Source of the DNA: Pontibacterium granulatum
Lineage (GTDB): Bacteria > Pseudomonadota > Gammaproteobacteria > Pseudomonadales > Balneatricaceae
Assembly (NCBI RefSeq): GCF_029961155.1
Contig: NZ_JASBRH010000012.1
Location: forward strand, 62,001-126,000
Direction of reading: 5' to 3'
Length of the DNA stretch: 64,000 nucleotides
Part shown: in pieces, positions 21,368-53,222 of the stretch
How the letters are laid out: each line of letters starts with the position of its first letter
How positions within the stretch are numbered: position 1 is the stretch's first letter
Notes under the pieces: model-generated
What the model was told of the DNA's origin: nothing
Database searches by the model: none
What the model saw: only the letters and a program-made list of their open reading frames with translations
Program-made: the position numbers and the translations under genes

Positions 21368-21383
21368 CTGTATATATATACAG
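21368..21383. promoter_or_regulatory. LexA (SOS) operator upstream of imuA
   Basis: CTGTATATATATACAG is a perfect 16-bp palindrome matching the gammaproteobacterial LexA consensus CTGT-N8-ACAG. It ends 16 bp before the imuA ATG, so LexA bound here would block the cassette promoter until DNA damage. Confidence 0.93.
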
Positions 21384-21399
21384 TATCTATGCGTGTCTT

Positions 21400-22125
21400 A
21401 TGGCTACAAAATCCGGTTCTCTGCATTCATTGCTGCATAAAGGTGCGGTCTGGCGTGGACGACAGACTGCAGATCAACCCTGCCACCACAGCCTGAGCAG
21501 CGGTTATCCGCAGCTGGATGCACTGCTGCCTGGCCAGGGGTGGCAGGCGTCACAGCTGGTGGAACTGCTCTATCAGGAGGAGGGCAGCGGTGAGTTGGGT
21601 CTGGTGCTGCCGTTGCTGGCCGAGTTATCACAACAGGAGCGCTGGGTGCTCTGGGTAGATCCACCCCATATTCCCTATGCCCCGGCGTTGCTGGATGCCG
21701 GGGTAAACCTGGACCGGGTGCAGGTAGTACGCAGCAACAGTCGTCGCGACCGTCTCTGGTGTCTGGAACAGAGTATGAAAAGTGGCTGCTGCAGTGCAGT
21801 GTTGGGTTGGCTGCCTGCCGGGCAGGAGAAAGCGATCCGCCGCTTGCAGGTGGCTGCGGCCGAGGGCGAGTGCCGTGGCTTCCTGTTTCGGCACAGCCGC
21901 TGTCGCGAACAGCACTCCGCCGCGCCTTGCCGTCTGTTGCTGGAACCCCATCCGGAAGGCGTCACCGTGAGCACGTTGAAGCGCCGTGGTGGTTGGCCGC
22001 TACCGCCGCGGTTGGTGCCGGTGATGCCGTCTGCCTTAAGTAAGCCGCAGTCTGATAAGAACCGTCGTCCACAGCTAACACTGGTGGGTGGATCGGATGA
22101 GCATGCCTATCACCCCCGCCACTGA
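21400..22125 (+). CDS. imuA: SOS mutagenesis protein ImuA
   Basis: RecA-fold, SulA-like accessory protein of 241 residues, the first gene of the imuA-imuB-dnaE2 translesion cassette. Visible features: LSSGYPQLDALLPGQGWQASQLVELL, the segment GELGLVLPLLAELSQQ, and WVDPPHIPYAPAL, all typical of ImuA; the C-terminal tail is basic. There is no intact Walker A (GxxxxGK[ST]), as is usual for ImuA. The LexA box lies 16 bp upstream. imuB starts before its stop (29-bp overlap), indicating translational coupling. Confidence 0.9.
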   Translation: MATKSGSLHSLLHKGAVWRGRQTADQPCHHSLSSGYPQLDALLPGQGWQASQLVELLYQEEGSGELGLVLPLLAELSQQERWVLWVDPPHIPYAPALLDAGVNLDRVQVVRSNSRRDRLWCLEQSMKSGCCSAVLGWLPAGQEKAIRRLQVAAAEGECRGFLFRHSRCREQHSAAPCRLLLEPHPEGVTVSTLKRRGGWPLPPRLVPVMPSALSKPQSDKNRRPQLTLVGGSDEHAYHPRH

Positions 22126-23536
22126 GCACGATCCGCTCTGGCTCTACCTGCACTTTCCCCTACTGGCGCTGGAAGCCCAGCAGCTGGAAGCGGGCATCGC
22201 CGGGTTGCTGGATGATCGTGGTCAGAAGCTGGCGTTGTGCAGTTACGAAGCGGGGCAGGCGGGGCTGGAACCGGGCATGGCGATCGCCACCGCGTTCAGC
22301 ATCTGTCCCGAGCTTGAGCTGTTTCATCCCAACCCGGAGCGGGTACAGCAACAGCTGGAATCGCTGGCGCTTTGGGCAGGCAGTTTCAGTGCGCAGGTGG
22401 TGCTTTGCCCGCCGGAGGGATTGCTGCTGGAGATCGCGTCGATGCTGCATTATTTCGATGGTCTGAAAAGCCTCTGGCAGCAGATGCAGACCCGCCTGCG
22501 CACGCTGGGGTTCCATATCCGCTACGCCACCGGCCATACGCCGTTGGCCGCCCGGTTGTTGGCACGGGGCGGGCGTTCGCTCTGTATTGAGGGGTGTGAA
22601 GCCCATCTGCAGGTGCTGCAGCTGTTACCGATCAACCAACTGGAACTGCCCGCCAAGCAGCAGGATCAGCTGCGGGGGATGGGCTTGCTGCGGTTGGAGC
22701 AGCTGCAGGCTTTGCCACGGGAGGCGATCAGCAGTCGCTTCGGCCCCAAGTTGCTCGATTACCTGGATCGCATCAGCGGCCAGCGTCCCGATCCGCAGAC
22801 TTTCTTTGAACCGCCACCCCTGTTCCAGCAGTTCCACGAGTTCTCCCGTGAAGTGGAAAACAGCATGGCGCTACTTTTCCCGTTGCGCCGTATGCTGGAA
22901 TCCCTGGCAGGGTACCTGCGCCGCACGGAGTTACTGGCACAGCAGCTGGAGTTGGCATTGGTGGAGCGTGATGGCGCACACGAGCTGTACTCCATCGGTC
23001 ACGCCGCCGGTTCCGCCGATGCCGAAACCTGGCTGGGACTGTGCAAGCTGCGCCTGGAGCAGATCAAACTGCAGAAACCGGTGCTGGCACTGCAGTTGGA
23101 GGTGGAGCGGTTTAAGGGGCAGCAGCAACAGAGCTACGACCTGTTCGAGCGCAGGAAGCAGGCGGAAGACCCGATGGACCTGCTCAGCCGTTTACGGGTC
23201 CGCCTTGGCGAAAATGCCGTGCAGCCGGTGGCCCTCTGTGCCGACCACCGCCCCGAGCTCAGCTGGCAGTTCAGGGCGGACAAAAAGGAGAAAGGCGGTT
23301 CGGTTCTGCCACGTGGCCGCCCGGGTTGGTTATTGCAAAAACCACAGCAGATCGCCCGGCAGCAGCTGCCGCCCCATATCGAGCTGCTGGCCGGTCCCGA
23401 GCGGATCAGCAGTGGCTGGTGGGACACTCGTCAAGTGCGGCGGGATTACTACATCGGGCGCTGGGTCGATGGTCGTTATGGCTGGTTGTTCCGTGACGCG
23501 GGCGGTGACTGGTTCCTGCACGGCTGGTTTGGCTGA
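22097..23536 (+). CDS. imuB: ImuB, Y-family polymerase-like protein of the SOS mutasome
   Basis: DinB-related scaffold protein of about 479 residues. It follows the Y-family fold (finger, palm and little-finger-like segments), but the catalytic acidic residues of motif I and the SxDE motif are replaced (LHFPLLALE and IASMLHYFDG), consistent with the non-catalytic, adaptor role of ImuB between the beta clamp and DnaE2. The ATG at 22097 is chosen over the in-frame GTG at 22088 because GGTGGATCGG lies just before it. The overlap with imuA and 10-bp gap to dnaE2 support one operon. Confidence 0.9.
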   Translation: MSMPITPATEHDPLWLYLHFPLLALEAQQLEAGIAGLLDDRGQKLALCSYEAGQAGLEPGMAIATAFSICPELELFHPNPERVQQQLESLALWAGSFSAQVVLCPPEGLLLEIASMLHYFDGLKSLWQQMQTRLRTLGFHIRYATGHTPLAARLLARGGRSLCIEGCEAHLQVLQLLPINQLELPAKQQDQLRGMGLLRLEQLQALPREAISSRFGPKLLDYLDRISGQRPDPQTFFEPPPLFQQFHEFSREVENSMALLFPLRRMLESLAGYLRRTELLAQQLELALVERDGAHELYSIGHAAGSADAETWLGLCKLRLEQIKLQKPVLALQLEVERFKGQQQQSYDLFERRKQAEDPMDLLSRLRVRLGENAVQPVALCADHRPELSWQFRADKKEKGGSVLPRGRPGWLLQKPQQIARQQLPPHIELLAGPERISSGWWDTRQVRRDYYIGRWVDGRYGWLFRDAGGDWFLHGWFG

Positions 23537-23546
23537 GAGGTGAGTC

Positions 23547-26500
23547 ATGCAATACGCCGAGCTGCACTGCCTCAGTAACTTCAGCTTTCTGCGGGGCGCC
23601 TCCCGTCCGGACGAGCTGGTCCTGCGCGCCCATGAACTGGGCTACCAGGCGCTGGCGATCACCGACGAGTGTTCAGTGGCGGGTGTGGTGCGGGCCTGGG
23701 AAGCGTGCCGCGAGCTGTCGTTGAAGCTGATCGTGGGGGCGGAATTTCATCTGGATGGGCATTGTCTGGTGCTGCTGGCCCCGGACCGTCTGGCCTATGC
23801 CGCGCTTTGTGCACTGATCACCACCACTCGCCGCCGCTGCGAAAAGGGCAAATACCAACTTTACTGGGATGACCTCGCCGATGGGGTGGGCGGGTGCTTG
23901 CTGCTGTTCCGGCCTTCTGACGATGAACACGATGTGATGCACCGAGCCAAGCGTGTGAAGGCCTGGTTTCCCGAGCGCTGTTGGTGGTTGCTGGAGCGGT
24001 TGCTGGAGAACGGTGATGACAGTCGTTACCAGCAACAGCTACGTCAGGCCCGTGTACTGGGGATTCCACCGGTCTGTGGCAATGACGTACATATGCACCA
24101 CCCGGATCGCCAGCGTCTACAGGATGTACTGACCGCAATCCGTCTGCGTACCAGCGTACAGCGGGCGGGGTTTGCCCTGGCCGCCAACGCCGAACGCCAC
24201 CTGCGTTCATTCCGCAAACTACAACACCTCTATCCCGTTGAGTTGTTGCAGCAGACCGTTGCGATCGCCGAGCGTTGCCACTTCGATTTGGGGGAGTTGC
24301 GTTACGAGTATCCGGCGGAGCTGGTGCCCATGGGTAAAACCGCCGGACAACACCTGCTGGAGCTGGTCGATACAGGCAAACAGCTGCGTTATCCCCAGGG
24401 AGTGCCGGACAAGGTGCAGCAGCAGATCAACTACGAGCTGCAAGTGATCGCCGAGATGCAGTACGAGCACTACTTCCTCACCATCCACGACATCGTACGT
24501 TTTGCCCGCGAGCGCCAGATCCTCTGTCAGGGGCGGGGATCGGCAGCGAACTCGGTGGTGTGTTACTGCCTGCATATCACCGAAGTGGATCCGATGCAGG
24601 TCAACCTGCTGTTTGAACGTTTTATCTCCAAGGAGCGCAACGAGCCGCCCGATATCGATGTGGACTTCGAGCACGAGCGGCGCGAGGAAGTGATCCAGTA
24701 CATCTACCAGCGTTATGGCCGTGAGCGGGCAGGGCTGGCGGCTACCGTGATCAGCTACCGCGCCAAGAGCGCGATCCGCGACGTGGGTAAGGCACTGGGC
24801 ATGGACGAGAGTTACCTGAGCTGGCTGATCAGCCGCCTCGACCGGCGTGACCACAGCAATCCCTGGTTGCAGCAGCTGGCGGCGATGGGCGGGGATAATC
24901 CAGCGCCGATCTACCAGCAGTTTGTGGAACTGGTGGCGCAGATCCTCGACTTTCCCCGTCACCTCTCCCAACACGTGGGCGGCTTTGTGATCTCGGCCGG
25001 TCCCCTGTCCGAGTTGGTGCCGGTAGAGAATGCGGCGATGCAGGACCGTACCGTGATCCAGTGGAACAAGGATGATCTGGAAGCGTTGGGCCTGTTGAAG
25101 GTGGATGTGCTCTCGCTGGGCATGCTGACCGCGATCCGCAAAACCCTGGGCCTGCTCAGCGAACAGCAGGGCCAACCGATGCGGGTGCAGGACATTCCGC
25201 GTGAAGATCCGGCGGTGTACGCCATGCTCAGCAAGGGCGACAGTATCGGAGTGTTCCAGGTGGAATCCCGCGCCCAGATGAGCATGTTGCCGCGCCTCAG
25301 ACCACAAAAGTTCTACGACCTGGTGATCGAAGTGGCCATTGTGCGTCCCGGCCCGATCCAGGGGGATATGGTGCACCCGTTCCTGCGCCGTCGCGATGGG
25401 CTGGAGCCGGTGGATTATCCGAGTGAGGCGGTAAAAGAGGTGCTGGGACGCACCTTGGGTGTCCCTATCTTCCAGGAGCAGGTGATCAAGCTGGCGATGG
25501 TGGCGGCGGGTTTTACCGGCGGTGAAGCCGATCAACTACGCCGGGCAATGGCCGCCTGGCGGCGCACTGGTTATATCCGCAAGTACCAGCAGAAGCTGGT
25601 GGAGGGGATGCTGGCGCGGGGGTATGACCTTGAGTTCGCCCAGCGCATCTGCCGCCAGATCGAAGGTTTTGGTGAGTACGGTTTTCCCGAGTCCCACGCC
25701 GCCAGCTTTGCCCTGCTGGTGTATGTATCGGCCTGGCTCAAGCGCCACCATCCGGCAGCGTTCTGTTGTTCGCTGCTCAACAGCCAGCCGATGGGCTTCT
25801 ACTCCCCCGCGCAGTTGGTGCAGGATGTGCGCAGGCATGGGGTTATCGTGTTGCCAATCGACCTCAATGCTAGTGGTTGGGATCACACTCTCGAACCTCT
25901 TGTAGCAGCCGGCGTTTTATCGGCCGCAGGCGCTGACGGCGATGATGCACCGAAATTATCTGTAGCAGCGGGCTCCGACCGCGACAAGCCGCAAAGCATA
26001 AATATGTCGCCCTCAGAGCGGGCTGCTACAACAGATCGTTATGCGCTTCGCCTGGGCCTACGCCTGATCAAAGGCCTGTCAAAACAGGGCGCCGAAGCCC
26101 TGATCGCCGCCCGTCCGGCAGAGGGTTACCAATCCGTCTCTCAGGCCCGCCAGCGTTGCCGTTTATCCCGTGGCGACTGGGATGCCCTGGCCGCCGCCGG
26201 GGCGATGAACTCGATCTCCGAACACCGCTATCAGGCCCGTTGGGAGCTGCTTGCCGATACTCCCTGGCTGGAGATGGACCCGGAACCGTTGCATCAGATA
26301 TGTGACGATCCGATCCGGCTGGCGGCGCCGGATGAACAGTCCGACCTGGAGGAGGACTACCGCAACACCGGCCTCAGCCTGGGACGTCATCCGCTGGCGA
26401 TGATACGGGCGCAGGGCATCCTGCCACGCTGTCTGAGTGCGGCCCAACTGGAGGATTGTCGCCACGGCCAGCTAGTACATGTGGCCGGACTGGTGACCAA

Positions 26501-26750
26501 CCGACAGCGGCCGGGCACCGCCAGTGGGGTGACTTTTGTCACCCTGGAAGATGAAACCGGGCAGATCAATCTGGTGGTGTGGCAGGCCACCGCGAAGGCA
26601 CAACGGCGGGCACTGCTGGCGGCCAATATCCTGCAGGTGTCCGGTGTGTTGGAGCGGGAAGGGGACGTGATCCATGTGGTGGCGGGGCGGCTGCAGGACA
26701 TCAGCTTCCAGTGGGATGCGCTGAAGGTGAAGTCACGGGATTTCCGTTAA
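23547..26750 (+). CDS. dnaE2: Error-prone DNA polymerase DnaE2 (ImuC) with an in-frame repeat insertion
   Basis: C-family polymerase of 1067 residues for damage-tolerant synthesis. The N-terminal PHP domain starts ELHCLSNFSFLRGASRP; the polymerase active site contains PDIDVDF with Asp369 and Asp371; GFGEYGFPESHAASFALLVY is a family hallmark; a C-terminal OB domain (HVAGLVTNRQRPGT) follows. GAGAGGTGAG precedes the ATG. Residues about 785-828 are encoded by palindromic repeat DNA (25901-26030) that replaces the normally short linker before the RLGLRLIKGL segment without breaking the frame. Otherwise length and motifs look intact, so the enzyme is probably functional. Confidence 0.95.
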   Translation: MQYAELHCLSNFSFLRGASRPDELVLRAHELGYQALAITDECSVAGVVRAWEACRELSLKLIVGAEFHLDGHCLVLLAPDRLAYAALCALITTTRRRCEKGKYQLYWDDLADGVGGCLLLFRPSDDEHDVMHRAKRVKAWFPERCWWLLERLLENGDDSRYQQQLRQARVLGIPPVCGNDVHMHHPDRQRLQDVLTAIRLRTSVQRAGFALAANAERHLRSFRKLQHLYPVELLQQTVAIAERCHFDLGELRYEYPAELVPMGKTAGQHLLELVDTGKQLRYPQGVPDKVQQQINYELQVIAEMQYEHYFLTIHDIVRFARERQILCQGRGSAANSVVCYCLHITEVDPMQVNLLFERFISKERNEPPDIDVDFEHERREEVIQYIYQRYGRERAGLAATVISYRAKSAIRDVGKALGMDESYLSWLISRLDRRDHSNPWLQQLAAMGGDNPAPIYQQFVELVAQILDFPRHLSQHVGGFVISAGPLSELVPVENAAMQDRTVIQWNKDDLEALGLLKVDVLSLGMLTAIRKTLGLLSEQQGQPMRVQDIPREDPAVYAMLSKGDSIGVFQVESRAQMSMLPRLRPQKFYDLVIEVAIVRPGPIQGDMVHPFLRRRDGLEPVDYPSEAVKEVLGRTLGVPIFQEQVIKLAMVAAGFTGGEADQLRRAMAAWRRTGYIRKYQQKLVEGMLARGYDLEFAQRICRQIEGFGEYGFPESHAASFALLVYVSAWLKRHHPAAFCCSLLNSQPMGFYSPAQLVQDVRRHGVIVLPIDLNASGWDHTLEPLVAAGVLSAAGADGDDAPKLSVAAGSDRDKPQSINMSPSERAATTDRYALRLGLRLIKGLSKQGAEALIAARPAEGYQSVSQARQRCRLSRGDWDALAAAGAMNSISEHRYQARWELLADTPWLEMDPEPLHQICDDPIRLAAPDEQSDLEEDYRNTGLSLGRHPLAMIRAQGILPRCLSAAQLEDCRHGQLVHVAGLVTNRQRPGTASGVTFVTLEDETGQINLVVWQATAKAQRRALLAANILQVSGVLEREGDVIHVVAGRLQDISFQWDALKVKSRDFR
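25901..26030. repeat. Palindromic repeat element inserted in frame within dnaE2
   Basis: The 70-bp unit 25961-26030 is an imperfect palindrome: its first 26 bases (TGTAGCAGCGGGCTCC...) match the reverse complement of its last 26 with only a few mismatches. A further TGTAGCAGCC at 25901 followed by a CGGC...GCCG hairpin suggests a second, partial unit. The element reads through as protein without a stop. A relative is at 53134-53222: over about 28 bases of the arm the two differ at two positions. Confidence 0.85.
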
Positions 26751-52731: not shown

Positions 52732-53127
52732 ATGACTCCTTTCCGTATCGAGATGAAAGTTCGTGACTACGAACTGGATATGCAGGGCATCGTTAACAAC
52801 GGCGTCTACTTTAACTACCTGGAACACGCCCGTCATGAGTTCCTGCTGGAGAAGAACGTGGACTTTGCCGCACTGGCCGAGCAGGGCATCCACCTGGTCG
52901 TGATCCGCTCCGAGCTGGACTACAAAGCCTCCCTCAAAAGCGGCGATCGTTTTGTGGTGGAAGTAACGGTCGAGCGCCTGAGCAAGGTGAAGTTCGGCTT
53001 CCGCCAACGAGTGATCCGTCTGTCTGACGAAAAAGTGTGTGTGGAAGGTCTGGTGACCGGTACCGCCCTGAACGAGCGCGGTCGTCCGTATCTGTCGCCG
53101 GATTTGGAGTCGTTGTTCGAAGAATAA
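52732..53127 (+). CDS. Acyl-CoA thioesterase, 4HBT / YbgC-FadM family
   Basis: Hot-dog fold thioesterase of 131 residues. The signature MQGIVNNGVYFNYLEHARHEFL covers residues 17-38; Asp16 precedes it as in the 4-hydroxybenzoyl-CoA thioesterase family (DxxGxVxxxxY). No signal peptide. AGAAGGCGAGATC precedes the ATG. A palindromic repeat follows the stop at 53134. Likely hydrolyses acyl-CoA esters in the cytosol. Confidence 0.87.
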   Translation: MTPFRIEMKVRDYELDMQGIVNNGVYFNYLEHARHEFLLEKNVDFAALAEQGIHLVVIRSELDYKASLKSGDRFVVEVTVERLSKVKFGFRQRVIRLSDEKVCVEGLVTGTALNERGRPYLSPDLESLFEE

Positions 53128-53133
53128 AGCGTT

Positions 53134-53222
53134 TGTAGCAGCCCTCTCCGAGGGCGACATATGATAATCATCTGCGGGTTGTCGTGGTCGACCCTCAAAG
53201 GGCATAAAAGACCGCTGCTAAA
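53134..53222. repeat. Palindromic repeat of the dnaE2-insert family
   Basis: Begins TGTAGCAGCCCTCTCC, has an inner GTTGTCGTGG and ends near CCGCTGCTA. The left arm (53134-53161) matches the reverse complement of the right arm of the dnaE2 element (26003-26030) except for two bases. It lies between the thioesterase and ilvY stop codons and may act as the transcript end for both. Confidence 0.8.

Follow-up and report, generated by a model that had tools for sequence, protein, structure and literature searches.

A REPIN read in frame within dnaE2 of Pontibacterium granulatum, and unrelated palindromic repeats in the same DnaE2 loop of other genomes

Results

dnaE2 comes third in an imuA-imuB-dnaE2-like cassette

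We analyzed a stretch of 64,000 nucleotides from Pontibacterium granulatum (contig NZ_JASBRH010000012.1, positions 62,001 to 126,000; referred to as the window and numbered from its first base). It contains a cassette in the order imuA-imuB-dnaE2-like, of which dnaE2 is the third gene:

21368..21383, plus strand: LexA-box-like site CTGT-N8-ACAG, a consensus match 16 nt 5' of the imuA start
21400..22125, plus strand: imuA-like gene (NCBIfam NF033429 ImuA_translesion, 210.4 bits, cut-off 150)
22088..23536, plus strand: imuB-like gene, upstream of dnaE2 in the cassette (Pfam IMS, E 3.1e-10)
23547..26750, plus strand: dnaE2, error-prone DNA polymerase III alpha-like, 1067 aa (NCBIfam NF004225 'error-prone DNA polymerase', 1409.5 bits, cut-off 939)

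The score of the third product lies above the cut-off of the NF004225 profile and places it in the DnaE2 family. Among the NCBIfam profiles, the imuB-like product matched those of DNA polymerase IV alone, all far under their cut-offs, and the name ImuB rests on the position of the gene between imuA and dnaE2. The palindrome immediately 5' of the cassette, CTGTATATATATACAG, may be a LexA box, an assignment based on its position and on the LexA-box consensus; the window has three matches to CTGT-N8-ACAG versus 1.07 expected by chance.

Nei-Gojobori estimates of dN/dS for dnaE2, with synonymous sites near saturation, were 0.062/0.93 against the relative L032 and 0.085/1.43 against the relative L031; on the branch of the window gene, values derived from these pairs were about 0.02/0.47. 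Residues D369, D371 and D520, which we take to be the catalytic aspartates, are invariant in the DnaE2 alignment. The gene is under purifying selection and appears functional.

A complete REPIN is translated within dnaE2

The 3' part of dnaE2 carries the following elements:

25901..25960, plus strand: 60-nt segment starting TGTAGCAGCCGGC, also absent in relatives, a probable decayed REP (13-base start; 9/13 pattern positions)
25961..26030, plus strand: REPIN, a head-to-head REP dimer of 70 nt translated in frame in dnaE2 (inverted repeat; fold z -3.5; family with 97 genomic pattern matches)
25962..25985, plus strand: left REP arm, GCGG/CCGC stem type, 0 mismatches to the family pattern
26006..26029, minus strand: right REP arm, GCCC/GGGC stem type, 0 mismatches to the family pattern

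The stretch 25961-26030 is a complete REPIN, in which a spacer separates two inverted GTAG-tagged REP arms. The two halves of the palindrome (25961-25986 and 26005-26030) are 81% complementary, and the strand from 25955 to 26036 folds into a hairpin of -31.9 kcal/mol that none of 200 shuffles equaled. As proposed in an initial annotation of this DNA, which was made from the sequence alone, the inverted repeat lies in frame inside a single open frame. The insertion looks recent because both arms are perfect.

With its 70 nt, the REPIN is not a multiple of three, so that the frame can have been preserved only jointly with other bases gained or lost in the inserted stretch. Of 23 head-to-head dimers in 19 examined loci, 18 can be read through in the frame that dnaE2 uses and 22 in one or more frames of either orientation; nine have a length divisible by three. 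An in-frame REPIN is less improbable than it seems, and the event, which the initial annotation regarded as unusual, is not new either, since REPs in DnaE2, uvrA, recB and further genes were reported in 2013 (PMC3733652).

The 60-nt segment directly upstream had been suspected to hold a second partial unit. Of its first 13 bases, 12 are shared with the beginning of the REPIN, which supports this suspicion in part, while the rest of the 60 nt has no other genomic copy: a donor search of the genome with the 60 nt gave a best E of 0.28, and no second copy was found after the first 13 bases. One of the 15 other matches to the segment is a 15-nt piece of a REP arm. Against the first 17 positions of the REP pattern, the segment agrees at 9 of 13 specified bases, a score shared by four other loops. 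We read this unit as a probable decayed REP, more on account of its 13-base start and its adjacency to the REPIN than of the 9/13 score.

The REPIN belongs to a dispersed family that flanks a transposase gene

A search of the genome returned 61 REPIN-like sequences at E up to 10. We derived the family pattern GTAGCAGCNNNCTCNGANNNCGNC from the genome's own copies and used the reversed pattern as a control; at up to two mismatches, the former matched 97 times versus three for the latter, in line with the proposal that the palindrome is a REP-like repeat with genomic copies. The unit has the layout GTAG-CA-GCNN-loop-NNGC. An unpaired terminal GTAG is followed by a short imperfect palindrome, and the many copies are dispersed and mostly extragenic, features that place the family in the GTAG REP super-family. 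In the strict-form arms (the outer GC being fixed by the pattern), the two free stem positions are paired in 64 of 67 cases, representing six stem types, a result to be expected if each arm depends on its hairpin.

The 97 matches group into 50 clusters, and an open frame of 60 aa or more runs across 18 of them. The dnaE2 cluster is the only one among the 50 with gene-like codon use on both sides (scores 0.07 and 0.19, compared with a mean of 0.20 for 51 training genes). A match with two mismatches at C6:55638 lies in a frame that scored 0.16 and -0.02 on its two sides; this match may be due to chance, given the three control matches. A further copy lies within the window:

53134..53222, plus strand: intergenic, partly degenerate copy of the dnaE2 REPIN family (exact arm 53135-53158 and a degenerate partner)

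This copy sits between convergent open frames ending at 53127 and 53231, and the initial annotation had correctly described it as an intergenic relative. At a separate locus (L192, G000:C13:20128-20613), four REP units GTAGCGGCGGTCTC... lie on the same strand at a spacing of 152-157 nt, unlike the usual inverted dimers.

The genome also encodes a REP-associated tyrosine transposase (RAYT) that is flanked by copies of the REP:

C33:66191-66658: REP-associated tyrosine transposase gene (NF047646 REP_Tyr_transpos, 134.8 bits, cut-off 80)

The flanking REP pairs are located at C33:66097-66164, about 25 nt before the gene, and at 66670-66729, 11 nt after it, and a position between two inverted REPs has been described as the rule for RAYT genes (PMC2817692). 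To judge from this proximity, the family was most likely spread by the transposase, although the genome has two further Y1_Tnp genes.

The insert is missing from the closest relatives and is predicted to form a floppy loop

Between ASGWDH and LRLG, the DnaE2 of the window has 53 residues, versus 13 in L032 and 18 in both L031 and L037. The insert, i.e., the REPIN together with the upstream 60 nt, is missing from these closest relatives, as had been expected. An insert is also apparent from the match to Pfam HHH_6, in which 89 positions of the profile are spanned by 132 residues, an excess of 43; the net gain over the nearest relatives is 35-40 residues, slightly less than the 44 or so that had been estimated. 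Neither of the observations that would have spoken against an inserted repeat was made: the nearest relatives lack the residues, and the genome contains copies of the palindrome. In a DnaE2 tree of 30 sequences, which omitted L037 and for which the loop was masked, the window protein has L032 as its sister (support 0.965), and the two form a clade with L031 (support 1.0). Judged from these comparisons, the insert is lineage-specific.

We modeled the window DnaE2 with AlphaFold2 using 41 aligned sequences (mean pLDDT 83.3, pTM 0.79). The best PDB matches of the model are Pol III alpha; the local sequence alignment to Thermus 2HPI stops at query residue 782 (chain residue 882), a few residues short of the insert. 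Residues 791-827 have a pLDDT below 50 and are flanked by strands at 781-784 and 832-835, with a helix drawn at 822-831 that is itself partly of low confidence. The model gives the insert no confident structure, which agrees with the notion that it loops out, and this low confidence suggests a floppy loop.

The same DnaE2 loop holds unrelated repeats in other genomes

Among 81 rows of the DnaE2 alignment, one of which (L037) is partial, insertions of at least 15 aa occur at only two places, after residue 785 (five rows) and after residue 125 (two rows, L048 and L072). The two inserts after residue 125 showed no significant hairpin (z -0.9 and -1.5), and two of the five after residue 785 are shown to be repeats. 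By this alignment, DnaE2 varies in length mainly at the loop after residue 785. An earlier study describes the conserved core of DnaE2 as shorter than that of DnaE1 and less uniform in length (PMC3919608).

We compared the loop across 177 loci (160 distinct rows), with placement by alignment and not by individual checking of each row. Its median length is 8 residues, and 17 rows have at least 24. Four of these 17 long loops are dispersed repeats according to genome searches, a number that is a lower bound because the fold z score is an insensitive test for repeats; the insert of Marinobacterium arenosum, a repeat by genome search, has a z of only -0.9. The other 13 long loops gave z scores from -2.2 to 1.2, and searches for two of them in 400 kb of their own genomes were negative. 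The order-level sample is biased: of 390 genomes searched, 214 had a match and 55 were fetched, namely the 30 best-scoring ones and 25 that were chosen, without taking all such cases, for a weak, long, doubled or loop-broken match.

Besides the window genome, three genomes carry a dispersed repeat in this loop. In M. arenosum (L033; genome G001 and, by its identical DnaE2 loop, G036), the 50-residue loop holds a different GTAG-ended palindrome, TGTAGGGC...GCCCTACA, which is adjoined by a piece of a further REP type and has 49 matches in its own genome at E up to 10. The 57-residue loop of G459 holds a CGTC-type REP dimer (22 own-genome matches at E up to 0.01; fold z -4.5), and the 34-residue loop of G166 holds the palindrome AAAATGGGGTCAGAGTC (19 own-genome matches at E up to 0.01, at about eight places other than dnaE2; fold z -9.9); all three counts include the dnaE2 copy. 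The DnaE2 loop thus contains two GTAG-ended families, one CGTC REP dimer and one GGGGTCAGAGTC palindrome in four genomes, G459 and G166 being from the same order. Elsewhere in G166 (L300, G166:C4), the GGGGTCAGAGTC palindrome forms the end of one open frame and is closely followed by another that looks galU-like.

The short loop of L037 carries GTAGCAGTGGCCTCTGA, which agrees with the pattern at 12 of 13 specified positions, a score that was reached by none of 14,300 shuffles of 143 loops. This sequence may be the trace of an older insertion. Near matches to the pattern can mislead, however, because the loop of L273 (genome G157) agrees at 11 of 13 positions and yet is not repeated in the 400 kb of its genome that were searched; we did not count it as a repeat. 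The long loop of L276 (genome G193), which contains a REP-like string, was not counted either, since a search of 400 kb of that genome gave no repeated copies.

At up to one mismatch, the pattern GTAGCAGC matched 644 times in G036 and 86 times in the window genome, with 0-86 matches across the 115 genomes other than G036; 16 of the 116 genomes of the family have any match. A clear DnaE2 (first matches at E up to 1e-100) is present in 38 of the 116, and among these 38 only the window genome and G036, both of which carry a repeat in the loop, exceed 11 matches. G037 (57 matches) and G039 (30 matches) have no clear DnaE2. In G036, where the family is strongly expanded, several tandem arrays of GTAGCAGC REPs have a period of roughly 83-110 nt. 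Of 15 REP clusters in G036, three close to sequence ends were set aside, and none of the other 12 showed gene-like codon use on both sides. A frame of 1,410 nt that spans a REP pair of M. arenosum (L315) is probably not a gene; its codon score was not positive on both sides, and the translation looks spurious.

Discussion

REPs are usually described as extragenic. The REPIN in dnaE2 is a real event of a known kind, and its recurrence at one site was not found in print; open-access literature, screened by title and the start of the abstract, held no further report of REPs in DnaE2 or of a common site there.

We consider it probable that a mobile REPIN, likely spread by a RAYT, inserted beside a decayed REP in a tolerant turn of DnaE2, and that unrelated repeats did likewise elsewhere. 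According to this working model, a REPIN copy would have inserted fairly recently next to the decayed remains of an older REP, in the turn that connects two strands where the HHH_6 region begins. The 35-40 extra residues would form a floppy loop that is tolerated, and unrelated palindromic repeats would have entered the same turn in at least three other lineages, likewise by tolerance. The model would not require a function of the insert. The initial annotation spoke of a domesticated sequence, which is not supported; there is no sign that the peptide has a function, and a tolerated insertion is enough. Tolerance is the simplest reason for repeats in the loop because the loop is where DnaE2 mainly varies in length. 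It accounts for most of the recurrence, although four unrelated repeat families in one loop are more than we expected from tolerance alone.

That targeting or selection, beyond tolerance alone, made the DnaE2 turn a recurrent landing place for unrelated mobile palindromes is in our view rather unlikely. We give somewhat less credence still to a true hot spot, in which the DNA at the turn is a preferred target of REP-type transposases or similar elements. The four families in one loop and the possible fifth trace in L037 argue for it, whereas length variation that is not due to repeats gathers at the loop as well (five of seven insertions of at least 15 aa, two of the five being shown to be repeats; 13 other loops of at least 24 aa, with fold z from -2.2 to 1.2), as tolerance predicts, and L273 combines a near match with a lack of copies in 400 kb. 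The insert might instead alter DnaE2 activity, as a mutator or regulatory loop, and be retained by selection. The authors of the 2013 survey, in which REP-decorated genes often serve DNA synthesis or repair, suspect changed activity (PMC3733652), and dnaE2 belongs to an SOS-type cassette, where a change in fidelity could matter. We regard this as improbable in view of the absence of the insert from the nearest relatives, its low AlphaFold2 confidence and the four inserts, which by eye look unrelated as peptides.

The stable hairpin (z -3.5) could also mean that the element works as RNA and modulates translation or decay of the dnaE2 mRNA; about 2.4 kb of coding sequence precede it, so that translating ribosomes would presumably open it, and such a role seems very unlikely to us. 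Equally hard to sustain is descent of the inserts in the window genome and in M. arenosum from one ancestral insertion. Both directly follow the same LE residues, and both genomes are rich in the GTAGCAGC family, but the main palindromes belong to different families. L031, L032 and L034, which fall in the same clade of five members (support 0.997), carry loops that measure 15, 10 and 16 residues versus 50, and several losses plus a replacement would be needed. Least credible of all is an assembly or sequencing artefact or a dying pseudogene: the genome is a 75-contig draft, but the 70-nt repeat lies about 43 kb inside a contig of 130.8 kb, and the intact frame, the low dN/dS and the invariant aspartates speak against decay of the gene. 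We therefore retain tolerated insertion of a mobile REPIN as the preferred explanation.

The occurrence of four repeat families in one polymerase loop of four genomes provides natural replicates for studying how protein sequence arises from selfish repeats. If targeting or selection did contribute, selfish repeats would repeatedly remodel an enzyme that makes new mutations. The recurrence also offers one defined site at which to test the proposal, made in 2013, that inserted REPs may alter repair enzymes.

The REPINs of Pseudomonas fluorescens were described by Bertels and Rainey in 2011. There, inverted REP doublets form the mobile unit, are associated with RAYTs and are mostly extragenic, with 14 of 1,067 of the commonest 16-mers overlapping genes (PMC3116915). 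Our family resembles them in these respects and differs in REP sequence, in host and in having one coding copy. The closest parallels come from the survey of Di Nocera, De Gregorio and Rocco (2013), which describes REPs inside genes, many of them for replication or repair, and names DnaE2 (PMC3733652). Its authors find insertions in repair genes hard to regard as fortuitous, and the GTAG-tagged REPs and REP dimers that it reports as translated in repair genes, including DnaE2, are like the case described here (PMC3733652). In some of its species such a gene is the only REP-bearing coding sequence (PMC3733652), as dnaE2 seems to be in the window genome. In the portion of the survey considered here, a common site is given for recB only, in two Xanthomonas species, with insertions at different sites in the other genes of this category; we find one DnaE2 loop with four repeat families (PMC3733652). 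The Rickettsia palindromic elements are an older precedent; of about 150 bp and with about half of 44 copies in open frames, they are likewise palindromic repeats in frame in genes (review PMC10969869). They occur in unrelated genes, whereas the REPIN is shorter, occupies one gene and belongs to another host, so that host and size set the two apart (PMC10969869).
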